DNA of 45,611 nt from Candidatus Poribacteria bacterium (GTDB taxonomy: Bacteria; Poribacteria; WGA-4E; WGA-3G). The translations under genes were made by a program, and so were the position numbers. How positions within the stretch are numbered: position 1 is the first letter of the stretch; every line of letters starts with the position of its first letter. The stretch covers positions 1 through 45,611 of the forward strand of contig JAPPFM010000008.1 of NCBI GenBank assembly GCA_028821605.1. Direction: 5' to 3'. Of the stretch, positions 1,711 to 13,648 are shown in pieces. Below the pieces are notes generated by a model, which searched no databases, was not told the origin of the DNA, and saw nothing but the letters and a program-made list of their open reading frames with translations.

Positions 1711-3810
1711 TTATTCCCGAAAAAGCGTGTGATGACTTGGAAATGCCTCGTTCTCAGGACAGTACTTTCTAAAGGTTCTGATATCTACGTCTAATGCCGT
1801 AGCTGCTTCAGCATGATCCGTGTATAGGTAGCGTGCCCGGCGATAGACATTCCATTCAATTTGCGAAAAGGTCATCCCACCGAAATAGATACAGCCATGA
1901 TCTCCAGCCAACCGTTTAGATAGCACTTTCAAAGCAAGGTGGACAGCTTGCCTCTGCCCATTCCGACTTTTGTTTCGCCATACTGGACGTGAGAAATTCT
2001 CCAAAATGAAAGGGTCGATAGGTTCTGTAAGAAGTCTTAGGATATCGTCATAAGGAAACCGCTCGAGTCGGCGCAAAGCCGCTATAGATGTACAAAGTGA
2101 ACCATCATCTTCTGTCCGATATGACAACCACCTCTCAAGCTGCGCGAGGGAAATACGCAATTCTCTCGCGGCTTTTTCTCTGTCTTCGCCATAACCTTTT
2201 ACGACTTCGTGTAGCACCGCAGTCAGGCTGCCTTTGAGGGTTCTTCCTTTTATGCTGACTGGCTCAGCTTCTTCTATGGGTTCGGAACTATGCCGAAGAT
2301 TTGATAATTGAGAGATGGCGTCGTCAACCACCCGCCTAATCCAGTCGTCCGAGAAGATCGGAAACTCTAAGTTGGTCGTGTTAAACTCGAGCCTCCAATT
2401 ATCAATTTCGCGTCTGGCACTATTGGCACGGGCGCGTCCATCATTAGAGAACGCTTCCCACCACTCGGCGATTTGACGATCAGTGACACCTGACTCCCCT
2501 TCAGAGAGAAACTGACAAAACTGTCCATCAGAGAAAAACTGACAGAATACCATGACCGGCAAATCAAGTAGGTTCTGATACACCGGTGTTTCCGTAGATC
2601 GTGTTTCTGGTGCCTCCACCTCGGAACTCCCATCTCCATTATACGTCCGAATGGTTTGTGGGAGGTCCCTCGGCATAATTACTTCGCCTTGGGAAGTGAC
2701 TGTCGCGCTTTTCAGGCATTGCTCTAACTCTCGAACGTTACCGGGCCAGTTATACGCTTGGAACAATTCCATCACTTCTTCCGAAATACCGTACAGTGGT
2801 TGACCATTTTCTTCCTCGATACGCTGCAGAAAGTACGCAGCGAGTAACGGGATATCCTCTTTCCGTTCTCGCAACGGAGACAAGGACATTTGATAGCCGC
2901 AGAGACGGTGGAACAAATCCAGCCGGAATTTCCCCTGCTCCACCATTTCCTCCAATCTCTGATTGGTAGTACTGATGATACGCACATCCACGCTACGCAC
3001 CTGAGTGTCGCCCAGCCGCGTGACCTCTCCTGTTTGCAACACATTGAGTAGTTTCATTTGTAATGCTGGTGACATATTACCGACTTCATCAAGAAAAAGG
3101 GTGCCGCCATCCGCCAACTCAAACCGCCCAGGTTGACCGCTTGGTCTTGCATCTGCAAAGGCACCCCTTACATGACCAAACAACTCATTCTCCAAGAGCG
3201 AATCTGGGAGTGCGCCACAATCAACTGTGACAAACTTTTCCCCTGCACGATCACTTTCTTGGTGAATTAAGCGCGCAACCAATCCCTTCCCTGTGCCTGG
3301 TTCACCTTCAAGCAGCACTGAAACGTTAAAGTTGGCTGTGAGTCCAATCCTTCTATTAAGTTCAAACATTACCTCGCTTTCCCCCACGAGAAAAGACTGG
3401 TTCCCAGGCATTTCTTCGTCCGGAATCGAGGCTGGGTCGCTTCGAGCTGATAGCCGGCCAAACGCCCGATCAAGTGCCCTACGGATACCTTCTATATCAG
3501 TGTGTTTAGACAAAACCTCTAATGCGCCCAGACGCATTGCCTTTCTCGCTGTTTGTACCCCCGCTCTAATCACAATTACAATTACCTCTGGGTGTTCCTG
3601 CTTAATTCTCCTCAATGCATCCAAACCACTTATCCCTGACAGTTCCACACTAAGCAAGACCACTTTCAAATTTTCGGATTGGTTAATTTTCTCCAAACCT
3701 TCGTCAATGGTCTCAACGATGATAGGCGAATAGCCCTCAGTTCTTAGGAAATACGCCAAGGCATGAGAACTTTGGTTGTTATCAATGATTAATACTTCTT
3801 TTTTTTCCAT
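1711..3810 (-). CDS. Sigma-54-dependent transcriptional activator with degenerate receiver and long C-terminal region
   Basis: About 699 residues from ATG at 3810; a TTG at 3837 is possible but less likely. Residues 1-120 form a CheY-like receiver (VLIIDNNQ) in which the usual phosphoacceptor Asp position is Ser54 (VVLLSVEL), so phosphorylation is doubtful. Residues 145-380 are a sigma-54 activator AAA+ domain: Walker A GEPGTGKG near 169, Walker B LFLDEV near 237, Arg region FRLDLFHRL, and the sigma-54 contact loop GAFADA where GAFTGA is usual. The roughly 310-residue C terminus is unusual: instead of one short Fis helix-turn-helix it holds two Fis-like segments (near 545-562 and 667-684) separated by unassigned sequence. 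Its own promoter is sigma-54 type with the three-site array found at three other promoters, so autoregulation and control of those genes is inferred. The inducing signal is unknown; no sensor kinase gene is nearby. Confidence 0.92.
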   Translation of the reverse strand: MEKKEVLIIDNNQSSHALAYFLRTEGYSPIIVETIDEGLEKINQSENLKVVLLSVELSGISGLDALRRIKQEHPEVIVIVIRAGVQTARKAMRLGALEVLSKHTDIEGIRRALDRAFGRLSARSDPASIPDEEMPGNQSFLVGESEVMFELNRRIGLTANFNVSVLLEGEPGTGKGLVARLIHQESDRAGEKFVTVDCGALPDSLLENELFGHVRGAFADARPSGQPGRFELADGGTLFLDEVGNMSPALQMKLLNVLQTGEVTRLGDTQVRSVDVRIISTTNQRLEEMVEQGKFRLDLFHRLCGYQMSLSPLRERKEDIPLLAAYFLQRIEEENGQPLYGISEEVMELFQAYNWPGNVRELEQCLKSATVTSQGEVIMPRDLPQTIRTYNGDGSSEVEAPETRSTETPVYQNLLDLPVMVFCQFFSDGQFCQFLSEGESGVTDRQIAEWWEAFSNDGRARANSARREIDNWRLEFNTTNLEFPIFSDDWIRRVVDDAISQLSNLRHSSEPIEEAEPVSIKGRTLKGSLTAVLHEVVKGYGEDREKAARELRISLAQLERWLSYRTEDDGSLCTSIAALRRLERFPYDDILRLLTEPIDPFILENFSRPVWRNKSRNGQRQAVHLALKVLSKRLAGDHGCIYFGGMTFSQIEWNVYRRARYLYTDHAEAATALDVDIRTFRKYCPENEAFPSHHTLFRE

Positions 3811-4001
3811 TACCTTACCTTCTATGTTCACTATCAATATGCGGTCAACTTAAGCTTTTAGCAGATGATAGCACAAGATTCAGTTGTTTCTTCCTATTTA
3901 CAGCAAAATTTTTTGTGCAGGCGGGTGCTTCTACTCATCCCTCTGTGCCAGTTGGTGAACGGGGTAGGAACTCGAATTCCCGTTCAACTAAGTCATAACG
4001 C

Positions 4002-4016
4002 GCAATTTTCATGCCA
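4002..4016 (-). promoter_or_regulatory. Sigma-54 promoter P2 of the activator gene
   Basis: On the minus strand the sequence is TGGCATGAAAATTGC, a near-consensus sigma-54 core with GG and GC at the right spacing. The expected start near 3990 gives a leader of about 180 nt to the activator ATG at 3810. The core is identical to P3 at 4546-4560. Confidence 0.87.
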
Positions 4017-4057
4017 AGCAAATTTCGTCAATATTAAGCACCAAAATAGCAATTCCA

Positions 4058-4111
4058 GCAGAAGCCTTGTAAAAAATAGCAGCGGTTTTGTAAAATTTCG
4101 CACAGGTCCTG
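4058..4111 (-). promoter_or_regulatory. Class I three-site activator array of P2
   Basis: Read on the minus strand there are three 12-bp sites: CAGGACCTGTGC (4100-4111), CAAAACCGCTGC (4079-4090) and CAAGGCTTCTGC (4058-4069). Starts are exactly 21 bp apart, about two helical turns, and the last site ends 42 bp before the -24 element. The same geometry is found before P3, P4 and P5. Confidence 0.78.
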
Positions 4112-4148
4112 CAGAACAAGAAATTCCCTTTACTTTTCATTAGCTCGA

Positions 4149-4213
4149 TATAAGAAACCATACATGGAGTGGGAGGAACACACCTCTGAAAAAATCCATA
4201 TCGGTTTCCTATA
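4149..4213. repeat. Imperfect inverted repeat between divergent promoter regions
   Basis: TATAAGAAACC (4149-4159) is matched by GGTTTCCTATA (4203-4213), 10 of 11 positions. Between the arms I see no gene. The rest of 4214-4440 holds a GTAG-type palindrome (separate entry) and otherwise nothing I can name. Confidence 0.45.
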
Positions 4214-4354
4214 CAGACGGCATCTGTTATAGCAGCTTGTCTGCCAGATCCGCTTTTGTCTTAGTTTATGGTGAACCTAATATGGCATATTGTCATAGAT
4301 ATGTCAAGTTTCTGATCAGAGCCATTCGGTTTTCTGCTGATTCTCTGGGGCATC

Positions 4355-4376
4355 GCGAGCGGGAGCTCGCTCCTAC
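4355..4376 (-). repeat. GTAG-headed palindrome (REP-like)
   Basis: GCGAGC (4355-4360) and GCTCGC (4365-4370) form a 6-bp hairpin with a GGGA loop. On the minus strand it is preceded by GTAGGA (4376-4371). The head GTAG followed by a palindrome is the layout of REP elements mobilised by RAYT transposases. Four further GTAG-headed palindromes occur in this window. Confidence 0.6.
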
Positions 4377-4450
4377 AGTTGTGTGTCGGGAAACGGAATT
4401 CCTTCCTATCAGAAGAACTAAATGACCCTGAAGGCGTTCCTTTTTCTCTG

Positions 4451-4504
4451 CAAAACCTGTGCGGATTTTTACAAGCCTTCTGCTATTTCTGGCAAAACTT
4501 GTGC
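4451..4504 (+). promoter_or_regulatory. Class I three-site activator array of P3
   Basis: The sites are CAAAACCTGTGC (4451-4462), CAAGCCTTCTGC (4472-4483) and CAAAACTTGTGC (4493-4504), spaced exactly 21 bp. The last base is 42 bp before the T of TGGCA at 4546. Confidence 0.8.
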
Positions 4505-4545
4505 TGGAATCGCCATTGTCTCCCGCAATATTGACGAAATTTGCT

Positions 4546-4560
4546 TGGCATGAAAATTGC
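4546..4560 (+). promoter_or_regulatory. Sigma-54 promoter P3
   Basis: TGGCATGAAAATTGC matches the sigma-54 consensus at the -24 and -12 elements. The expected start is about 4572. No convincing coding sequence follows for more than 800 bp; a 60-codon reading frame at 4700-4882 has no ribosome binding site and cuts across hairpins. The first transcribed part contains the palindrome GTAGGCCTAC (4600-4609) and a perfect 8-bp hairpin TTCTGCAT/ATGCAGAA (4643-4668). Confidence 0.83.
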
Positions 4561-4753
4561 TTCTACATTATTGCGTGTGAGTTGAAGAATAAAAGGCAAG
4601 TAGGCCTACGGAATTAATACTGAATGGGCATAAGGCATATAGTTCTGCATCGCTCACGGCATGCAGAAAATGCGCGGGAAATATTCATGAACCCCTAAAA
4701 TGTGTTGGGTGGCGACTGAAATTCGCACAAAAAATTGGGATGATAAAAAAATG

Positions 4754-4782
4754 TTGTATTTTATTTTAATTCTTGCTATAAT
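4754..4782 (+). promoter_or_regulatory. Sigma-70-type promoter before structured RNA
   Basis: TTGTAT (4754-4759), a 17-bp spacer, and a perfect TATAAT (4777-4782). A start near 4789 would place transcription directly ahead of the first strong hairpin at 4815. The surroundings are AT rich. Confidence 0.6.
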
Positions 4783-4788
4783 CCGTTT

Positions 4789-5084
4789 TGGCATCCGTAA
4801 AATCCTTTACAGGTGGTTCGGCGAGAGTGTCAGTCTCCCGAACCGCGGCACTGCCAAGCGTAGATTGCCAGTGCGTGTTTAAGTATATCATACATCGTAA
4901 GTAGTATGCTATGATATTTTAAGCAGCATCGTAATTTTACTTGATTTTTTTCGAAAAATTTTGTATCGTTACGAATGGACGTTGGAGGCGGATTGCCAGG
5001 GTAGTTCCCACTACCTCCCGTCTCCACCCAACTGGCAATTGGGTATGCGTCTAAGAATACAACGTCCAAATACCCCGATTTTTT
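4789..5084 (+). ncRNA. Candidate structured non-coding RNA, family not recognised
   Basis: About 300 nt with no supported reading frame but strong base pairing. Hairpin 1: GGTTCGG/CCGAACC (4815-4821, 4838-4844) extended by GAGA/TCTC. Hairpin 2: GCACTG/CAGTGC (4848-4853, 4869-4874) plus CAA/TTG. Hairpin 3: ATATCATA/TATGATAT (4885-4892, 4910-4917). The 3' part has crossing helices: TGGACGTTG/CAACGTCCA (4976-4984, 5060-5068), GGAGGCGG/CCGTCTCC (4984-4991, 5018-5025, one G-U), ATTGCCAG/CTGGCAAT (4992-4999, 5032-5039), GGTAG/CTACC (5000-5004, 5011-5015) and GGGTAT/ATACCC (5041-5046, 5070-5075) before six Ts. The order of arms implies a pseudoknot or mutually exclusive folds. I find no match from memory to tmRNA, RNase P, SRP or 6S RNA landmarks. 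It could be made from the internal sigma-70 promoter, from P3, or both. Confidence 0.6.
5041..5084 (+). terminator. Putative terminator of the structured RNA
   Basis: GGGTAT (5041-5046) pairs with ATACCC (5070-5075), followed by CGA and six Ts (5079-5084). The loop contains CAACGTCCA, which can instead pair with 4976-4984, so formation of this hairpin may compete with another helix. Confidence 0.5.
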
Positions 5085-5131
5085 GATTCACTGATGGAGG
5101 TGGTTCTACCTTCGTTAGTTTGGTTTCTTTG

Positions 5132-5185
5132 CAAAACTTGTGCGGATTTTTACAAAACTTCTGTTATTTCCTGCAAGGCTTATGC
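5132..5185 (+). promoter_or_regulatory. Class I three-site activator array of P4
   Basis: The sites are CAAAACTTGTGC (5132-5143), CAAAACTTCTGT (5153-5164) and CAAGGCTTATGC (5174-5185), spaced 21 bp. The last ends 42 bp before TGGCA at 5227. The whole array-plus-promoter block closely resembles that of P3, suggesting duplication. Confidence 0.8.
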
Positions 5186-5226
5186 TGCAATCGCCATTTT
5201 TCCGCCTAATATTGACAAAATTTGCT

Positions 5227-5241
5227 TGGCATGAATCTTGC
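5227..5241 (+). promoter_or_regulatory. Sigma-54 promoter P4 of the beta-barrel gene
   Basis: TGGCATGAATCTTGC has both sigma-54 elements. The predicted start near 5253 leaves a leader of about 190 nt before the ATG at 5443. I see no further structure in the leader that I would defend. Confidence 0.85.
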
Positions 5242-5442
5242 CCATTTCTGACTAAATCGCGAATAAGATTCCGGATTCGTTTGATGGGGATACGCTTCGT
5301 GTTCCATTGATTGACGAAGATGAAATTATTTTCGTATAGCAGAAGGATTCGTTATCTGACTGATATTTCCCATATTGTGGAATGTCATAAAAGCCTTCCT
5401 TTTCAGTGCGATATTCGGTCATAAACTTAAAGGAGGATTTCA

Positions 5443-5991
5443 ATGAAAGTTTTAGTCATTTTACTACTCGTTTTGCTCTGTTTGTTACCAGTACCGCAAA
5501 GTTTGGCACAGCAGTCCAACTTCTTTGACAAATTTATGGATGAAAAACGGAAAGGATTGTGGGCGGGGGCAGAATTGGGGTATGCGGTAGGAGCAGTGCA
5601 ATATAGTATCCCTCTTTTGGATTTTGAAGATACATCTGAGATACAAGGGACACTCATACGAGGCAAGTTAGGGTATGCGCCTTCAGAAAATCTGGTACCC
5701 TACATCGCAGGCGGCACAGATGCACTGGATTTTGGGGCGATGGTGTTTCTCCCGAATATCCGCCCAGGTTTTTATCTCGACGGTAGCTTTGGATCCTATG
5801 ACTTAGACCTTGAAGAATATGATAGTAATTTTTATGGCCTCCGCTTCTGTGGTGGTTATGAATTTCAGCCACACTGGAGCATTGAAGCTGGAATGCGTTA
5901 TATCTGGGGTTCAGCATCCATACTGGGCGAAATACGCACTGATGTGTCAGCAAGAGTATTCTTTATCTCTATTAATTACTTAGCCTACTAA
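5443..5991 (+). CDS. Predicted outer-membrane beta-barrel protein
   Basis: 182 residues. AAAGGAGG lies just upstream of the ATG. The N terminus is a textbook signal peptide (Lys, then VILLLVLLCLLPVP, then a LAQQS cleavage region). The mature protein alternates hydrophobic and polar residues with many Gly and aromatic positions (WAGAELGYAVGAVQYSIPLL, LRFCGGYEFQPHWSIEAGMR) and ends in an aromatic residue (FFISINYLAY), as small eight-stranded outer-membrane barrels do. No enzyme motif is visible. Because it is preceded by a sigma-54 promoter with the full three-site array, it is probably induced by the activator encoded at 1711-3810. The specific family is not recognised; an OmpW- or OmpA-barrel-like role is only one possibility. 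Confidence 0.78.
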   Translation: MKVLVILLLVLLCLLPVPQSLAQQSNFFDKFMDEKRKGLWAGAELGYAVGAVQYSIPLLDFEDTSEIQGTLIRGKLGYAPSENLVPYIAGGTDALDFGAMVFLPNIRPGFYLDGSFGSYDLDLEEYDSNFYGLRFCGGYEFQPHWSIEAGMRYIWGSASILGEIRTDVSARVFFISINYLAY

Positions 5992-6016
5992 AAGACGGTA
6001 AAAATTAAAATCAAAT

Positions 6017-6166
6017 ATTCGGATTAGAATCCACCTGAACAACGGTGAAAAGATTGAACCGCCTTATGGTCCAAGTTTAGCACCAAAGGAAGAAGTTGAG
6101 ATTGAATATTCAGGTGCCCACAAACCCTTCGATGGCTGGACAGCAGATTTTACAGTTGGAAAATAA
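6017..6166 (+). pseudogene. Gene fragment without start codon
   Basis: An open stretch of 49 codons encodes IRIRIHLNNGEKIEPP, then PYGPSLAPKEEVEIEYSG, and ends TADFTVGK before TAA. The composition looks like real protein, a beta-rich C terminus, but the frame has no start codon and is closed by a stop just upstream. It is probably the remnant of a longer exported protein. The remaining bases to 6263 hold nothing clear. Confidence 0.4.
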
Positions 6167-6263
6167 AAATCGCTATAGAGTGCCCCGACATGGCGAAGGT
6201 TCTCAATAGTTCCTGCACCACATGTTTAACCGAAACCCTCAATTTTCTAATGAGGAGAAAGTT

Positions 6264-8171
6264 TTGAAAAACGTATTTAAGCTAACAATAGGAATTGTGC
6301 TTCTCACGCTTGTGTTCTCAAGCCTTGGGTGGAGTCAGTCGACGGCTGACATCGTTCTCATCATTGACAGTTCCGGGAGTATGGTGGAAAACGATCCGAA
6401 TGACTTACGCAAAGCTGCAGCGAGGCAGCTGATCGATTTAGCCGATTCTGATGTCCAAATCGGGATTGTAGATTTTGACAGTGATGCCGTGACGCTTAAA
6501 GAACTCACCTCTGCCAATAAGGATGGAAAAAGTGAACTAAAGAACGCTGTTGGCCGTATTGATGCCTATGATGGAACTAATATTGCCGCAGGTCTACAAC
6601 AAGGGTTTGACGTATTATCTAAATCCAAGACTTTCACGGCAAGAAAGGCGGCAGTGCTGCTAACCGATGGCGAAGACAATGAGCCAACAACACTCGACGC
6701 ATACGTAGGAAACTATGTGAAAGAGGGATGGTCTGTCTATACAATCGGGCTTGATGATGGTGTGAGTCTTGACAGAGCGTTGCTGGAAGCCATAGCAGCA
6801 GAAACGCTGGAAGGCGAATACTATTCGGTAACTGTGGATAATATTCAGTCAGTCTACCACAAAATCCTTGCCAAGATTACCTGGAAATCTGTTGTTCTCG
6901 CAAGTCCGAGTGGATACATCAATCAAGATCAGACAATTGAAAAAAGGGTTAAAATTGATGGATGGGTTACACAGGCAAATTTTACCTTAAATTGGACAGG
7001 CAGCACTGTTGAAATGGTGCTTGTTGATCCCAGTGGTGCCGAGATCACACCTGACACCGCCGCCACTCTCGGTATTAGTTATCAAGCTGCACCGACTTAT
7101 GCTATCTATACCGTTGATAACCCAATGCAAGGGGAATGGAAGATGCGCTTGACAGGAACTGATATTCCCCCGGAAGGCGAAGCTTATGGCATTGTCGTTA
7201 CCGGTGCTTCGGACTTTATTACCAATCTCCTCGCCTTTGAGCCAAGTTACGCTATCGGGGATACAGTCCGTATCGGTATTCGCATTGAGGAAAAAACAGG
7301 AGACACCGCGCACCCCATAATTGGTGCTACGACTTCAGCCACTGTTGTTCGTCCGGATGGACGCATTGAAACGATCAACCTGTTTGATGATGGTGTCCAT
7401 AACGATAACGCAGCGGGGGATGGGATCTATGCGGGGAATTACACCAATGTGGATATACTGGGAACCTACCTGATTCGCGTTTCTGTTCAAAACGGGTTCT
7501 CGCGTGAGATTCAACAACAGATCATTGTCGGCGATATTGATAATGTCTTCGTCGATGGGTCAACCTTGATACCCGCCGCGGGGGCAACCCTCAACCGGGC
7601 ACCCCGCAGTATCAGTGCTGTTATCTCAGGACCCGCACGAAAAATTGACAGCGAATCTATTGTGCTGAAAATTGACGGAAAAGTTGTTGCACACACCTAC
7701 GATGTCGTGAATCAACTCGTTTCATTCCAGCCAACGCGCTTATCCCGCGGCACGCACACAGTGTCGCTAAGTGTCAATAACACTATTGAGACAAATTGGT
7801 CCTTTATCACTGCGTCGGGTGTTGCATCGCGTTTTGATACTTTGATGGTTCTTCTTAACGAAGAACTCAACACGCTTGAAGAGACGGACCTTGCACAGAA
7901 CTACCCGAATCCTTTCAACCCTGAAACGTGGATACCCTATCAATTGAGTGAACCAACTGATGTTTCCATTCAGATTTACGATAGCTCAGGGCACTTAGTT
8001 CGGACGCTGGATATAGGGGTAAAGACAGCAGGTGCCTATAGGACGCGTTCGCGCGCTGCATATTGGGATGGTAAGAATGAAATAGGCGAGCGTGTTGCGA
8101 ACGGTACCTATTTCTACACGCTCCGGACACCGGAATTCTCTGCCACACGCCGGATGGTCATTCTGAAGTAG
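6264..8171 (+). CDS. Exported von Willebrand factor A-domain protein with C-terminal FlgD-like sorting module
   Basis: About 635 residues from TTG 6264, chosen because AGGAG (6253-6257) lies 6 bp upstream and the peptide then begins as a clean signal sequence (KNVFKLTIGIVLLTLVFSSL...WSQS). An ATG at 6222 is an alternative without a good binding site. Residues about 28-205 are a VWA domain with an intact metal site: DSSGS, the Thr of DGTNIAAGL and the Asp of LTDGEDNE. The middle resembles extracellular beta-sandwich domains, including DGVHNDNAAGDGIYAGNYT, common in VWA proteins that bind other surface proteins. The last 90 residues carry NYPNPFNPETWIPYQL and end in a TYFYTLRTPEF...RRMVILK segment, a C-terminal module shared with two other proteins here and resembling type IX-style sorting domains. 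Role: surface or secreted adhesion protein, partner unknown. Confidence 0.87.
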   Translation: MKNVFKLTIGIVLLTLVFSSLGWSQSTADIVLIIDSSGSMVENDPNDLRKAAARQLIDLADSDVQIGIVDFDSDAVTLKELTSANKDGKSELKNAVGRIDAYDGTNIAAGLQQGFDVLSKSKTFTARKAAVLLTDGEDNEPTTLDAYVGNYVKEGWSVYTIGLDDGVSLDRALLEAIAAETLEGEYYSVTVDNIQSVYHKILAKITWKSVVLASPSGYINQDQTIEKRVKIDGWVTQANFTLNWTGSTVEMVLVDPSGAEITPDTAATLGISYQAAPTYAIYTVDNPMQGEWKMRLTGTDIPPEGEAYGIVVTGASDFITNLLAFEPSYAIGDTVRIGIRIEEKTGDTAHPIIGATTSATVVRPDGRIETINLFDDGVHNDNAAGDGIYAGNYTNVDILGTYLIRVSVQNGFSREIQQQIIVGDIDNVFVDGSTLIPAAGATLNRAPRSISAVISGPARKIDSESIVLKIDGKVVAHTYDVVNQLVSFQPTRLSRGTHTVSLSVNNTIETNWSFITASGVASRFDTLMVLLNEELNTLEETDLAQNYPNPFNPETWIPYQLSEPTDVSIQIYDSSGHLVRTLDIGVKTAGAYRTRSRAAYWDGKNEIGERVANGTYFYTLRTPEFSATRRMVILK

Positions 8172-8211
8172 TAGTGCTTCAATGTTGAGTTTATAGATGA
8201 TCCTGTTCGTA

Positions 8212-8230
8212 GTAGGGCAATTCATTGCCC
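8212..8230 (+). repeat. GTAG-headed palindrome (REP-like)
   Basis: GTAG (8212-8215) overlaps a perfect inverted repeat GGGCAAT/ATTGCCC (8215-8221, 8224-8230) with a 2-nt centre. It sits between two exported-protein genes, 56 bp before the next start codon. It has the same head as the palindromes at 23225, 36345 and 40253. Confidence 0.6.
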
Positions 8231-8285
8231 GTTGCTTGCCTTCGGACGTTCGATAATTGGCAGCGCATTTATTCAAGGAGAAGTC

Positions 8286-11200
8286 GTGAAAAACAGTTCT
8301 ACGTTGATAGCAGGTTTTAGCATCATAGTTCTTACGCTTCTGTCTGTCACGCCCGGGTACGCAAACCCGCGTGGGGTTGGAACACTGCGCTATTCGGTGC
8401 TTGCAGAGCAGCCGGAAAGTGTTTTAAGTATCGCTTTCAACCCGATACATGAAGACATACTTGCTGTCGGACGAGCCGATGGCACGATCCGACTGTGGAA
8501 CACAAGCACATCCGAACTCCTGCACACCCTCGGGGGGCGTACAGGTGCCGTCGAGGGGCATACAGATGTTGTCTTCACCCTCGCTTTTAGTCCTGATGGC
8601 AACAAGTTAGCAAGTGGAAGTGCCGACGGCACCGTGTGGGTATGGAATACAACAGACATAGAAAACCAGAAAAGCATAGAAGAACTCTGGAAGTTTTCTG
8701 AGCACAACGGTCTTGTGCTTACGCTTGCTTTCCTTACGGAGAATGGCAACGCACTCGCCAGTGGCAGTAAGAACGGTTCAATCAGGTTCTGGAACATAGA
8801 AACAGGAGAATGGCAGGATGTTATCTCTGGGGATGTACTCCCTGCTGTCCTCAGCCTCGCTTCCAGTCCGAAGAACAATCTACTTGCCACTGGACGCTCT
8901 GATAAGATAATTAGAGTGTGGAATCTAACGGCTGGCGAATTGATGCACACCTTTGATGGGCATAAGGATGATGTTACCAGCCTCGCTTTTAATTCCGATG
9001 GAAACACGCTCGTAAGTGGAAGTGCGGATGGCACAGTGCGACTGTGGAGTATAAGCCCAGATGCATCTCCGCAAGAATTCACCCCTCATACGGATTGGGT
9101 CAATAGTGTTGCACTCCATGAAACAACGCTTGCCAGCGGAAGTCACGATAAGACGATCCGCCTGTGGAATGCAAACACAGGAAAACTCCAGCACACGCTC
9201 ACCGCGCATACCGGAAGTGTGGAAAGCGTTGCATTCAATGCTGATGGGGATACACTCGCGAGTGGGAGTGTCGATGGCCGGGTGCTGCTATGGAAACTCG
9301 CTCCAGTACCAGACGCACCAGACTTAGTGGTTGAATCTGTCACGGCGAACAAAATCACCTTAGACCCTGGAGAAACGTTTACCTTGACTGCCATTCTTAA
9401 GAACCGAGGAATCGGGCGTGCCGAGGCTCCCATCTACTACCGTTGGCATCGTTCAACTCATCCGAATATTCATAAGATGGGAGGTTCTGATAAGGTCTTA
9501 ACAGGTGCCAGCGAAGAAATAGGCAAGAAACGCAAAGCAGTTGCTGTTAAGGGGAATATATTCCCCAACATATTTGAAGATGTTGAGCTGACAGCAGATC
9601 AATTCAGCAAGCAATACATGGTTCTTACTGCCCCTGAGAAGTCTGGCACCTACTATTACTCTGTTTGTGTTGAGAGTCCTCTCAATGAGAGTGATAATTG
9701 CTCTGCTGATGTAGAAATTACCGTCCAGTCACCCGTTAACATCCCTGACTTGAACCTCCGTGCGGTTATTGAAAAAGAATTAAGCAAGAACCCAGGTGCC
9801 ACAATTACCGCAACCGATATGCAGACAATCACGGGCCTTAATGCAAAAGGTAAGAGTATTGAAAAATTGACCGGACTTGAATTTGCTATAAATCTTGAGA
9901 AGTTGGATCTTTCCAATAACCAAATATCGGATGTGAGCCCCCTCGCGGGTTTGACGAAGCTTGAAGAGTTGGATCTTTCTGACAACAGCAATGCAAAGGG
10001 TAAAAGTATTACGAATCTGACCGGTCTTGAACTTGCTATAAATCTCGAGAAGTTGGATCTTTCCAATAACCAAATATCGGATCTGACTCCTCTTAAGGAT
10101 TTGAAAAATCTTGAGGAGTTGGATCTTTCTGACAACAAAATACTAGATGTGAATCCCCTCGCAAACTTGACAGAACTTAAAGAGTTGGATCTTGATAACA
10201 ACTCAATATCGGATATGAGTGCCCTCGCGGGACTGAAAAATCTTACATTGCATTTTAACAAACACCACGAAACTATTAATGAGTACGGATCCACCGTTTA
10301 CAACTATGGTGATAGTGATAGCAATAAGGTAGTGCTAATAAAAGGGATGAAGTTGGAAAAGTTAAGTCAAGAAGGGAGGAACAAAGGGGCACAGTTGGTA
10401 AATGGTAAGCCTGACTTTAGTGCCTCTAACCTTGACTATACCCACTATCAGCCTCTCGAGAATGATCCATATTTTAAAATTTATGGGCAACCCAATAATC
10501 ATACATGTGGCCACACCTCCGCCCTGATGCTATCGCACTACTATGGCGTGAAGTTTTCCACAAAGATGGAGGGTATAGATCTCTTTAACAAATTGGCTAA
10601 AGGTTCTTTTTCTTTGGAGTGCAATAAGATATTGCTTTCCGTTTATCCTAATTTGCTTTCATTGCCTACTCTTACTGATTTACGTTCGTTTCGTCTTGAT
10701 GACGCATTAAAATTTTCGTGTATTCCTGGTGCATCAGATGTACTTTATCAGTTCGGACCTGGAACTCTTCCACATGAAATGGCTATCGGTCTTAAAAAGA
10801 TATTTCCCTTTCCTACTGAGGTACGTAATGGAACCGGTAATGTAGATAGCCAGAAGAAATTCCTGGAAAATCAAGTTTCAAAAAGCTGTCCTCCAATAGT
10901 TCTTTTAAAACTTAAGCGGTTGAGTCTCCATTGGGTGGTTGTTGTCGGATACGATACCAAAGCAGACAAGTTTCTAATTGCCGACCCGAGCCCTCAAAAT
11001 AAAGGCAAATTTAAATGGTGGGAATGGACTAACCAGCCGGGTTGCGGACCGTCGCTTCAGCAAGCTTGGAGTCTAGAAGATTACTTATTCGACCTTGATT
11101 GCGTTGGAACACTTGCTTGGACGGCCGAGGTGAAAGCACTCGCTAAATGGTTAGGTGGAGCGGTTGCTGCTACTGAGCTATTGAATGCAGGAACTCAATA

Positions 11201-11843
11201 TTTTGCGGTTTTTCCAACAGAAGCACCTCCGCCCCATCACCTGGAATCACAAACGATTCAAATCCATAAGGAGGGTAAATCTAAATTCTTGGGATTTTGG
11301 ACAGATAGTACATGGACTTGGGATCGGGACTTTCAGGGAAAAAAAGTGATTGATTGTAGGTGGTCTTTTATAAAGCTGGAAAGTTGTTCTGAACCAGACG
11401 TTAGATGGAGCGACGAAAAGGTCACCGTATCTGGTACATGTGAAGATGGGAAGATTGATAAAGGCATCGTAGATATGTTTTTAACGGTGTACTATGAATC
11501 AGGCGGGGCCGCTCATTCTGCTCCTTCTATTGTGTTTTCTGTACCATCAACAAATACCTCCCTGTTGCCCAACTACCCAAACCCGTTCAACCCAGAGACG
11601 TGGATACCGTATCAACTATCAGAGCCCGCAGATGTGACACTAACGATCTATGATATCCAAGGTCGCGTGGTGCGGAATTTGGATTTAGGGCATCAACGTG
11701 CGGGGATGTATCACAGTCGGAGCCGGGCAGCACATTGGGATGGTAGGAACGCACAAGGCGAATCGGTCGCAAGCGGAATCTATTTCTATACGCTCACCGC
11801 AGGCGAATTCACCGCCACGCGTAAACTCTTGATACGGAAGTAG
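8286..11843 (+). CDS. Exported giant: WD40 propeller, CARDB-like, LRR, C39-like peptidase domain and C-terminal sorting module
   Basis: About 1,185 residues from GTG 8286; AAGGAG at 8275-8280 supports this start over an upstream ATG at 8232. Order: signal peptide (1-27, cleavage near GYANP); seven WD40 blades (about 35-340, such as LASGSADGTVWVWN); a CARDB-like beta domain (345-485, DLVVESVTANKITLDPGETF); internalin-style leucine-rich repeats (485-655, LEKLDLSNNQISD); a papain-like C39-type domain with Cys near 741 (HTCGHTSALM), His near 882 (LHWVVVVGYD) and Asp near 900 (IADPSPQ); then NYPNPFNPETWIPYQL near 1096 and the shared C-terminal module. C39-like domains usually cleave peptides or are inactive relatives; all three expected residues are present. 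Its function is inferred as an extracellular protein-interaction scaffold with possible protease activity. Confidence 0.88.
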   Translation: MKNSSTLIAGFSIIVLTLLSVTPGYANPRGVGTLRYSVLAEQPESVLSIAFNPIHEDILAVGRADGTIRLWNTSTSELLHTLGGRTGAVEGHTDVVFTLAFSPDGNKLASGSADGTVWVWNTTDIENQKSIEELWKFSEHNGLVLTLAFLTENGNALASGSKNGSIRFWNIETGEWQDVISGDVLPAVLSLASSPKNNLLATGRSDKIIRVWNLTAGELMHTFDGHKDDVTSLAFNSDGNTLVSGSADGTVRLWSISPDASPQEFTPHTDWVNSVALHETTLASGSHDKTIRLWNANTGKLQHTLTAHTGSVESVAFNADGDTLASGSVDGRVLLWKLAPVPDAPDLVVESVTANKITLDPGETFTLTAILKNRGIGRAEAPIYYRWHRSTHPNIHKMGGSDKVLTGASEEIGKKRKAVAVKGNIFPNIFEDVELTADQFSKQYMVLTAPEKSGTYYYSVCVESPLNESDNCSADVEITVQSPVNIPDLNLRAVIEKELSKNPGATITATDMQTITGLNAKGKSIEKLTGLEFAINLEKLDLSNNQISDVSPLAGLTKLEELDLSDNSNAKGKSITNLTGLELAINLEKLDLSNNQISDLTPLKDLKNLEELDLSDNKILDVNPLANLTELKELDLDNNSISDMSALAGLKNLTLHFNKHHETINEYGSTVYNYGDSDSNKVVLIKGMKLEKLSQEGRNKGAQLVNGKPDFSASNLDYTHYQPLENDPYFKIYGQPNNHTCGHTSALMLSHYYGVKFSTKMEGIDLFNKLAKGSFSLECNKILLSVYPNLLSLPTLTDLRSFRLDDALKFSCIPGASDVLYQFGPGTLPHEMAIGLKKIFPFPTEVRNGTGNVDSQKKFLENQVSKSCPPIVLLKLKRLSLHWVVVVGYDTKADKFLIADPSPQNKGKFKWWEWTNQPGCGPSLQQAWSLEDYLFDLDCVGTLAWTAEVKALAKWLGGAVAATELLNAGTQYFAVFPTEAPPPHHLESQTIQIHKEGKSKFLGFWTDSTWTWDRDFQGKKVIDCRWSFIKLESCSEPDVRWSDEKVTVSGTCEDGKIDKGIVDMFLTVYYESGGAAHSAPSIVFSVPSTNTSLLPNYPNPFNPETWIPYQLSEPADVTLTIYDIQGRVVRNLDLGHQRAGMYHSRSRAAHWDGRNAQGESVASGIYFYTLTAGEFTATRKLLIRK

Positions 11844-11860
11844 ACAGAATGTCTTTTTTT

Positions 11861-11914
11861 CAAAGACTATGCGGATTTTTACAAACCTGATGCGAATACG
11901 GACAAGACCTTTGC
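11861..11914 (+). promoter_or_regulatory. Class I three-site activator array of P5
   Basis: The sites are CAAAGACTATGC (11861-11872), CAAACCTGATGC (11882-11893) and CAAGACCTTTGC (11903-11914), spaced 21 bp. The last ends 42 bp before TGGCA at 11956. It begins only 18 bp after the stop codon of the previous gene. Confidence 0.78.
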
Positions 11915-11955
11915 TGGAATCTCCTATTTTCGCCCAATAATTCGCAAAATTCGCT

Positions 11956-11970
11956 TGGCACGCATCTTGC
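11956..11970 (+). promoter_or_regulatory. Sigma-54 promoter P5
   Basis: TGGCACGCATCTTGC is close to the full sigma-54 consensus. The predicted start is about 11982, at the very edge of the inverted-repeat element that fills the leader of the genes at 12136 and 12338. Confidence 0.87.
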
Positions 11971-12135: not shown

Positions 12136-12324
12136 ATGCGAATAATTTCAACCTTTCACATCTTGACTATTTTCATGGTGGTCCTGATGTTCAGTTCAAC
12201 TTTTAGTACTTTCGCGCAACGAAGTTTTGTGCGAAAGGACGTTATCGCCACTGCCAAAGCGGATGCCGATAAAGATATCAACAAATTTGTATGGTTTGGC
12301 AAAGGCGCGGCTGCCACAAACTAA
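12136..12324 (+). CDS. Small exported protein, function unknown
   Basis: 62 residues. AAAGGAG precedes the ATG at good spacing. The first 28 residues are a signal peptide (FHILTIFMVVLMFSSTF, then TFAQRS). The remaining 34 residues include KADADKDINKFVWFGKGAA, which looks like the beginning of a longer small envelope protein rather than a finished domain, so truncation is possible. It ends 13 bp before the barrel gene at 12338, is under P5, and is probably translationally linked to that gene. Confidence 0.6.
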   Translation: MRIISTFHILTIFMVVLMFSSTFSTFAQRSFVRKDVIATAKADADKDINKFVWFGKGAAATN

Positions 12325-12337
12325 CGGGAATTTCAAG

Positions 12338-13648
12338 ATGAAAACGAAAACAATGTTGACGTTACGAATGATTGTTAAGACTGGGTTTCTATTAGGCACT
12401 TTACTTATCCTTATTCATAACAGCGTGGCCGAAAATTTTGGCATCTTAGAGCCAAGCACGGAAATAATTGAAACAGGATTAGATAATCGAAGCCTCGCGA
12501 TGGGAAAAACAACAACCATTACTTCGAGAAGCAGCAGTGCGATCTTCTCAAATCCGTCTATTCTCGGCACCTTCACCAAAACGCAGGTGCAGGCGGGTGG
12601 GAAACTTTTATATGGGACAATTATAAATGAAGCAGCACTTGCAGACAACGCCTATGAGTCGTATGAGGGCAAGTATCTGCTTTTTCCGAATAGGTCGTAC
12701 TTCGCATTCGCTGTCCCGTATCGGTTACCGCACCGACACTTACCCCGCCCACGGCACTGGCAACTTGTTTTTGGGATGGGTTACCAAAGAAATGAAGGCG
12801 CAAAAGGGGAGATCCAGGCAGTTTGGGCAGAAGAAGGCGGCACGGAGCTAAAGGGTGAACCCGTGAGCATCCAGGGCAGGCGGCGCGGGGCTATGAGCAC
12901 GCTTACCCCGGGCATCGCGTTTAATTTTTTAGACAAATACTTCTGCGGGGTAACGCTCAACCGAACCCTTGGTGCCATTACCTACACAAACGAGTTGAAA
13001 GGTTCTGACTACTACAAAAAAGTAGATGACGAGCAGGAACAATCGGCACTGTTCCTCAGAATTGGTGCCCTCGCGAAGCTCACACCTGAACTCTCTGTCG
13101 GTTTGACCTACCGCCCAGCATTTGACTGGGAATTGGGGGAGACGATCACGAGAATCGCCGAGAACGGTGAAATTGAAACGAGTAGGGATCAGACGTATGC
13201 GACCTTAACAATACCTACGATGTGGGGACTCGGCGCGGAATATAAAGTATCTCCTGAATTCGTTATCGCTTTAGAAGTACAATCCCGTCCATTCTCTAAT
13301 CTTCAATGGAGTGGAGATGTTCGTCAAGAACTCTTTATTGAGGATGGTTTTAATTTTTCCGTCGGTGCAGAGTATTCAGGGATAGGCTTTCCATTGCGCT
13401 TTGGGGCATTTCAGGACGTGATTCCGTTTGTAGATGAAAACGACACTGCACCCGTGAATCTTCTCGGGCTCACTGCAGGCCTCGGTTCTAATAGAAAAGC
13501 AGCCTTCTCTTGGGATGCTTCGGTGCTCTTTGGCACCTGGGAGCAGCTGAATGATGAAGGGCAAAAATACTCGGAAAATCTAATACGTGTCGGTATTTCG
13601 GCGACGTATCACTTCAGGACGAATTTTGGCGGGGCTGCTGTAAATTAG
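12338..13648 (+). CDS. Outer-membrane beta-barrel protein, FadL/PorV-like
   Basis: About 436 residues from ATG 12338, whose GGGA lies just upstream; longer in-frame starts run through the preceding small gene in another frame and are unlikely. A signal peptide (MIVKTGFLLGTLLILIHNSVAE) is followed by the segment SLAMGKTTTITSRSSSAIFS and NPSILGTF, the usual opening of FadL/PorV-type barrels where a conserved Asn-Pro follows early strands. The rest is alternating beta-strand sequence (FGMGYQRNEGAKGEI, VGLTYRPAFDWELGE, VGISATYHFR). It may move hydrophobic compounds or act as an outer-membrane anchor for C-terminally sorted proteins, as PorV does in type IX systems; this is suggested only by the company of proteins with such C-terminal modules. 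Confidence 0.78.
   Translation: MKTKTMLTLRMIVKTGFLLGTLLILIHNSVAENFGILEPSTEIIETGLDNRSLAMGKTTTITSRSSSAIFSNPSILGTFTKTQVQAGGKLLYGTIINEAALADNAYESYEGKYLLFPNRSYFAFAVPYRLPHRHLPRPRHWQLVFGMGYQRNEGAKGEIQAVWAEEGGTELKGEPVSIQGRRRGAMSTLTPGIAFNFLDKYFCGVTLNRTLGAITYTNELKGSDYYKKVDDEQEQSALFLRIGALAKLTPELSVGLTYRPAFDWELGETITRIAENGEIETSRDQTYATLTIPTMWGLGAEYKVSPEFVIALEVQSRPFSNLQWSGDVRQELFIEDGFNFSVGAEYSGIGFPLRFGAFQDVIPFVDENDTAPVNLLGLTAGLGSNRKAAFSWDASVLFGTWEQLNDEGQKYSENLIRVGISATYHFRTNFGGAAVN

Follow-up and report, generated by a model that had tools for sequence, protein, structure and literature searches.

Poribacteria are sponge-associated bacteria. In a Poribacteria contig of 45,611 nucleotides, analysed as a whole and referred to here as the window, four sigma-54 promoters each stand behind three upstream sites in one geometry. 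The question raised by this locus is which protein reads the array, and what is made from the promoters that carry it.

Four copies of one promoter in the window

The promoters are P2 to P5.

4002 to 4111, minus strand: P2, array at 4058-4111 and sigma-54 core TGGCATGAAAATTGC at 4016-4002; faces the EBP gene, the sole EBP-facing array of 34
4451 to 4560, plus strand: P3, array at 4451-4504 and sigma-54 core at 4546-4560; upstream of an RNA, in an arrangement found at 22 of 54 RNA copies
5132 to 5241, plus strand: P4, array at 5132-5185 and sigma-54 core at 5227-5241, located by pattern match
11861 to 11970, plus strand: P5, array at 11861-11914 and sigma-54 core at 11956-11970, located by pattern match

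The geometry described in the first-pass annotation is exact in all four: three 12-bp sites follow one another at intervals of exactly 21 bp from start to start, and the T of TGGCA comes exactly 42 bp after the end of the third. The -24/-12 core TGGCAY-N5-TTGC is likewise exact throughout, the last site combined with the core at 42 bp shows no mismatch, and the 21-bp period phases the upstream activator sites on one helix face. The claim that the sites fit CAARRCYTNTGC stands without reservation for six of the 12, the remaining six matching at 10 or 11 of 12 bases (P2, 11/11/12; P3, 12/11/12; P4, 12/11/12; P5, 11/10/12). By eye the site is dyad-like, with CAAAACTTGTG agreeing with its reverse complement CACAAGTTTTG at 8/11.

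A two-site pattern (CARRRCYTNTGC twice, 21 bp apart, with at most three mismatches, slightly looser than CAARRCYTNTGC) matched eight times in the window against 0.04 expected, and none of 100 shuffles scored as high. The arrangement had been called too regular for chance. That is borne out by the count, but the four arrays cannot be taken as four events: because the spacers and the array-to-core stretch are conserved as well, P2 to P5 are homologous copies of one promoter of ~110 bp. P2 resembles an inverted copy of P3 (80% over 114 bp). Conservation in other genomes is a better test than chance regularity, and it holds.

Distribution of the array in the genome and in relatives

Across the 60 contigs (6.0 Mb) of the window's own genome, the three-site pattern, allowing at most three mismatches, matches five times and its reversed control not at all. 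Four of these matches are in the window; the fifth, on contig C44, adjoins an EBP paralogue and stands 41 bp from its core. The last site plus core at 42 bp, again with at most three mismatches, matches four times, at P2 to P5, and once in the reversed control. This whole-genome search, proposed as a check in the first-pass annotation, thus produced no flood of random matches. The array regulon is local: two EBP loci hold all five arrays of the 6-Mb genome.

The array pattern matches 24 times in 16 of 58 genomes of the family (Poribacteria), with no match of the reversed control. A sigma-54 core lies 32-43 bp away at 23 of the 24, and at the other (G020:C69:29000) the core reads CGGCA, one changed base, at the same distance. 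Arrays standing free of a core, named earlier as the outcome that would count against a dedicated regulon, were not seen. All fetched loci together hold 34 distinct array-plus-core promoters. The distance from array to core is 42 bp in 19 of them, 41 in six, 43 in five, 40 in two, 32 in one and 29 in one, so that 32 of 34 fall at 40-43 bp; 32 bp is shorter than 42 by one helical turn. Four of the 34 have two good sites where the others have three. At one locus (G047, L067) four sites scoring 10-12 of 12 precede a single core, at spacings of 27, 20 and 21 bp.

The 34 promoters differ in what they precede: an RNA in 21 cases, a protein frame in 10, a shortened RNA in one (G044), the end of the contig in one and, at P2, the EBP gene. 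The autoregulation proposed for P2 is consistent with its facing the EBP gene here, but this orientation is peculiar to the window copy. At the G044 locus (L126) the EBP and the array are kept, and downstream of the core only the 3′ end of the RNA is left. The arrangement at P3 is the commonest one to have been kept in relatives, and what it precedes is not a protein gene but a structured RNA, a point that was missed earlier.

A structured RNA behind P3

No frame of at least 100 aa is listed in the interval between P3 and P4, which contains the following feature.

4788 to 5084, plus strand: structured non-coding RNA of ~297 nt with a T-run end, from alignments, covariation and folding; both ends putative

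The RNA segment shares 86% identity, across 456 positions, with the region that follows the C44 array. Further copies are present in the same genome (contigs C58, C49 and C10) and in relatives. The stretch 4786-5095 folds with a z score of -5.7 against shuffles. On an alignment of 48 copies, a structure of 98 pairs has 94.3% standard pairs. Changes on both sides are seen in 26 of the 98 pairs, compared with 11.3 ± 2.4 in shuffles (0 of 500 as high) and 13-15 in slid controls, for a structure derived from the same alignment on which the changes were counted. This covariation alignment (A3) takes in 48 of 54 copies; L053, L126, L145, L146 and both copies of L148 were left out as cut, shortened or unalignable at one end. 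An earlier alignment (A1) has 33 of the 34 copies then found, one being cut by the end of its locus, and another (A4) has 33 of the 48 A3 copies. The motif GGCATCC near the RNA 5′ end is invariant in the 33 copies of A1, from which its invariance is taken since the 5′ ends in A3 were set by that motif; a T run follows ~297 nt later in most copies.

Rfam 15, searched with the window RNA and one divergent copy, returned no family over its gathering score. At E up to 10 the window RNA had sub-threshold matches of E 1.3 to 5.2, those of the divergent copy were likewise at chance level, and the Rfam matches in the window are three tRNAs only. With a model of the first 136 positions, the RNA is found in 33 of the 58 family genomes, under strict filters by which weak matches are lost, and in none of 26 other phylum genomes. 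Any match to the array plus RNA occurs in 41 of 117 genomes, some of these being to the array part only and two, outside the family, being chance-like. In a pattern search of GTDB contigs, the sole named record matched was an uncultured Poribacteria bacterium.

Two other identities for this segment were rejected. As a coding gene it would have a longest ATG/GTG frame anywhere between 9 and 93 aa in length, judged on 54 copies of which some have untrimmed tails. The downstream genes differ between copies, and the RNA is therefore not the leader of one gene. An antisense frame of 79 aa runs across the window RNA. G017, a genome of the window's genus, has two tandem RNA matches ~620 bp apart without a sigma-54 core (L148). 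Hfq matches are present in 40 of the 58 family genomes, 27 of them over the cut-off, in frames of at least 158 aa.

Near-invariant segments TTGGCA, TGCCAA, TTGCCAG and CTGGCAA lie at window positions 4788-4880 and about 5030-5040. They can pair in two ways that exclude one another, and the RNA may accordingly switch between two states.

Promoters of the RNA and their linkage to sigma-54

Alignment of the copies places a second promoter between P3 and the RNA.

4754 to 4782, plus strand: sigma-70-type promoter of the RNA; TTGTAT at 4754-4759, 17 bp, TGCTATAAT, -10 at 4777-4782

The -10 is TATAAT in 25 of 52 copies and TATACT in 12, with TG one base before it in 43 of the 52, and the -35 TTGTAT agrees with TTGACA at 3/6. 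A simple promoter scan left this promoter unflagged and gave two weak promoter-like sites only (2.0 expected); a simple terminator scan left the T-run end unflagged and gave one hairpin only, at 5090-5119 (0.6 expected). A block CCAAAATTTGTTGGAT...CAAAAATTGGG is found upstream of the -35, at 4685-4740 in the window and in other RNA copies. It stands out most where the copy has a sigma-54 core, is weaker in the other copies, and is perhaps a further activator site.

It is conceivable, if unlikely, that the RNA is independent and constitutive from the sigma-70 promoter and that the sigma-54 promoter upstream is incidental or otherwise used. As such a reading would have it, 47 of 52 copies have the end of the -10 positioned 5 bp ahead of the conserved T(T/C)GGCATCC, and 15 of the 54 copies are without an upstream sigma-54 core, one of them being the shortened G044 RNA, though it stands behind an array. 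The remaining 39 comprise 22 with an array, two with a core and EBP and no 21-bp array, 14 with a different core and one with a core at the contig end. The frequency of cores speaks against a constitutive RNA: 38 of 53 copies have a strict core no more than 250 bp upstream, against ~0.8 expected (0.0146 per copy), counted with L128 left out for having <260 bases upstream, though it is core-bearing. In the downstream control the strict pattern was found at 0 of 47 copies and a looser one at two of 47. Nor is there a frame of that minimum length before P4 that P3 might serve instead. From the conserved sigma-70 promoter and the 15 copies without a core, we conclude that the EBP is not needed everywhere for the RNA.

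The sigma-54 linkage of the RNA takes two forms. At 21 of the 22 array-bearing copies a long EBP is encoded on the fetched stretch, always divergently, and the contig of the 22nd is without one; in all, the RNA is beside a long EBP in 19 genomes. The second form also speaks against an incidental core. Here 14 copies stand behind a different core (TGGCAC...), and 11 of them, with the core TGGCAC[AG][AG]TT[CT]TTGC and a conserved upstream region of their own, have a different EBP gene, codirectional and upstream (L052, L068, L133, L135, L137-L141, L144 and L152). In the three sequences of this second EBP that were read, the protein has GAFTTA and no receiver.

On a tree of 48 RNA copies the class labels need six changes, compared with a mean of 21.5 after shuffling (0 of 200 as low), which indicates that RNA lineages and sigma-54 linkage have largely been inherited together. 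The array-linked copies are in one starred set of 25 rows, with 23 of the array class (two of them with a core and EBP and no 21-bp array), one with a core at the contig end and one without a core. As both the RNA copies and the genomes are related, the counts are not independent.

The EBP and its correspondence with the arrays

The window EBP is the sigma-54 activator encoded divergently beside the RNA.

1711 to 3810, minus strand: EBP gene, 699 aa; Pfam Response_reg, Sigma54_activat and AAA_lid_14

The protein consists of a degenerate receiver, an AAA+ sigma-54 activator domain and a C-terminal region of ~300 aa. Its Walker A is GEPGTGKG and its Walker B GTLFLDE; Walker B and the arginines are kept in 24 aligned rows of the long type, and the long EBP of G006 has an altered Walker A, GEPSTGK. 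Contact with sigma-54 is normally made via the GAFTGA loop. This reads GAFADA in the window EBP, and an exact GAFTGA is found in 11 of 25 long-type rows. The sigma-54 gene (rpoN) occurs once in the genome (PF04552, one match over the cut-off). The phospho-acceptor Asp of the receiver is Ser in the window EBP and either N or S in all 25 long-type rows; all six short paralogues have D. Given a receiver without a phospho-acceptor, control is probably exerted by the level of the EBP or by another ligand, not by a histidine kinase.

The C-terminal region was found in 26 of the 58 family genomes, and one of these matches, a fragment of 44 residues only (G004), was set aside to leave 25 genomes with a long EBP. 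HTH_8 is over its cut-off in two of four C-termini scanned, the window's own not being one of the two. The structural model of the region is poor overall (mean pLDDT 54), with confident segments at ~130-178 and at 251-300, the latter a second three-helix segment. Residues 130-175 align with ZraR (1ojl) at Z 4.0 and rmsd 1.4 over 44 residues, and the same region aligns with NtrC1, NtrC4 and Fis at Z of about 4. These values are tied with unrelated rows, the best row in VIA-align being an unrelated ribosome-assembly protein (Z 4.3), and the reading of a Fis-type fold therefore rests also on HTH_8. Foldseek returned nothing with E < 0.001 for the model, and NCBIfam gave none over cut-off among the 25 models listed for the EBP and none at all for its C-terminus. 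From the model and HTH_8 taken together, the C-terminus has a predicted Fis-type HTH.

A long-type ortholog is present in 25 of the 58 family genomes and all 16 genomes with an array are among these: 16 of 25, compared with none of the 33 others (Fisher p 2.6e-8, kinship ignored). For 23 of the 24 family arrays there is also a long EBP on the same contig, and only G002:C139 departs from this. The earlier proposal of a dedicated activator array is supported by this co-occurrence.

In principle some protein other than the long EBP next to it, for example an NtrC-type paralogue, could read the array, and candidates are plentiful, each of the 58 family genomes having two or more EBP matches with an E value no higher than 1e-60. 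We consider this quite improbable, as the arrays track the long EBP and, in two related genomes only, the array is lost (G052) or loosened (G055) where the EBP C-terminus is larger and divergent. The G055 locus (L125) keeps the core, the RNA and three sites, the sites being spaced by 20 and 22 bp and standing 85 bp away from that core, a finding that weakens the idea that sites change with the EBP. At the G052 locus (L150) the EBP, core and RNA are present and a recognisable array site is absent. Both genomes have CTATCGGTAGA-like words nearer the core.

That the ~110-bp promoter and the RNA form a dispersed mobile or MITE-like repeat, regular through copying and not through function, would fit the one to five RNA matches per RNA-bearing genome, the conserved spacers and the inverted likeness of P2 to P3, but we reject it as highly improbable in view of the position beside the long EBP in relatives, the compensatory helix changes, the differing downstream genes and the absence of any match in 72,556 plasmid and 50,697 phage records.

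Proteins behind the arrays

Signal-peptide-like starts are seen by eye in nine of the 10 array-linked proteins, and the tenth is acetyltransferase-like. The nine are WD40 proteins, a VWA protein, lipoprotein-like proteins and the proteins encoded first after P4 and P5.

5443 to 5991, plus strand: outer-membrane beta-barrel protein, 182 aa, first gene after P4 (PF13505, E 5e-7)
6222 to 8171, plus strand: VWA-domain secreted protein, second gene after P4 (PF00092); a similar protein, by eye, is behind the G054 array
12227 to 13648, plus strand: OMPP1/FadL-like outer-membrane protein after P5 (PF03349, E 2e-9)

The first-pass annotation was therefore correct in placing envelope proteins behind P4 and P5. 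Before P5, at 8232-11843, lies the gene of a large secreted protein with WD40 and LRR repeats and, by eye, a sorting-tail-like end.

Proposed mechanism and relation to known systems

We think it likely that the locus is a self-contained sigma-54 module, in which the EBP acts from the phased sites on the RNA at P3, on outer-membrane proteins at P4 and P5 and on its own gene at P2. The EBP would assemble on the three in-phase sites, which are spaced by two helical turns, probably with a dimer on each and six subunits altogether, and such a hexamer would contact sigma-54 RNA polymerase at a core whose rotational distance is fixed. It would thereby turn on P4, P5 and P3, the last giving the ~300-nt RNA that may also be transcribed from its additional sigma-70 promoter, and in this genome it would activate its own gene via P2 as well. 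Of the outputs, the RNA is retained most frequently, and our best guess is that it is a trans-acting regulatory RNA.

A broader interpretation is more tentative, and we would place it somewhat short of an even chance. The RNAs would form a family-restricted group of structured ~300-nt regulators, coupled to two different sigma-54 activators encoded next to them, each with its own kind of upstream sites, in addition to a shared sigma-70 promoter, and would possibly work as a two-state switch tuning outer-membrane proteins.

EBPs that drive RNAs are known from other bacteria. LuxO of Vibrio is an NtrC-type EBP, controlled by phosphorylation, that drives the regulatory Qrr RNAs of about 100 nt from sigma-54 promoters, and both Qrr and CrcZ are Rfam families. 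The Poribacteria system is similar in that an RNA is linked to an EBP; it differs in that the RNA is ~300 nt and matches no Rfam family.

A closer parallel in the use of subsites is CbrB of Pseudomonas. It is described as a sigma-N activator that barely depends on phosphorylation and has three subsites at intervals of 20-25 bp along one face of the DNA, non-palindromic and variable in spacing, its targets being the small RNAs CrcZ and CrcY and an operon resembling an efflux pump (PMC6296734). Both systems thus combine a three-subsite activator with an RNA target, the RNA here being unrelated. The Poribacteria system differs in its 21-bp spacing, in the EBP gene lying divergent beside the RNA and in a receiver without the Asp.

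The three-site arrays themselves are of a kind already known from NorR, GcsR and CbrB. For NorR at norVW of E. coli, three enhancer sites are described as a scaffold on which a higher-order oligomer forms that is probably a hexamer (PMC2941729). NorR shares the number of sites, but has a GAF sensor in place of a receiver and an operon as target in place of an RNA. GcsR at gcvH2 of P. aeruginosa has three tandem EBP sites; unlike the Poribacteria EBP, it is TyrR-like, with 18-bp palindromes and an amino-acid operon as target (PMC4894688).

Searches of the open-licence literature, judged by titles, brought up no study of a sigma-54 regulon or regulatory RNA in Poribacteria. Neither the RNA family nor its link to two types of EBP turned up in those searches or in Rfam 15. 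If the proposed reading is right, the locus offers a compact enhancer of 21-bp geometry whose natural spacing variants (40-43 and 32) could serve in tests of hexamer assembly, an EBP lacking the phospho-acceptor, and a structured RNA family tied to two different activators.

Three further sigma-54-like cores without an array stand on the plus strand of the window, at 399 (TGGCATAAAAATTGC), 21650 (TGGCACGAAAATTGC) and 23420 (TGGCACAGAAATTGC), so other EBPs may act in the window as well.
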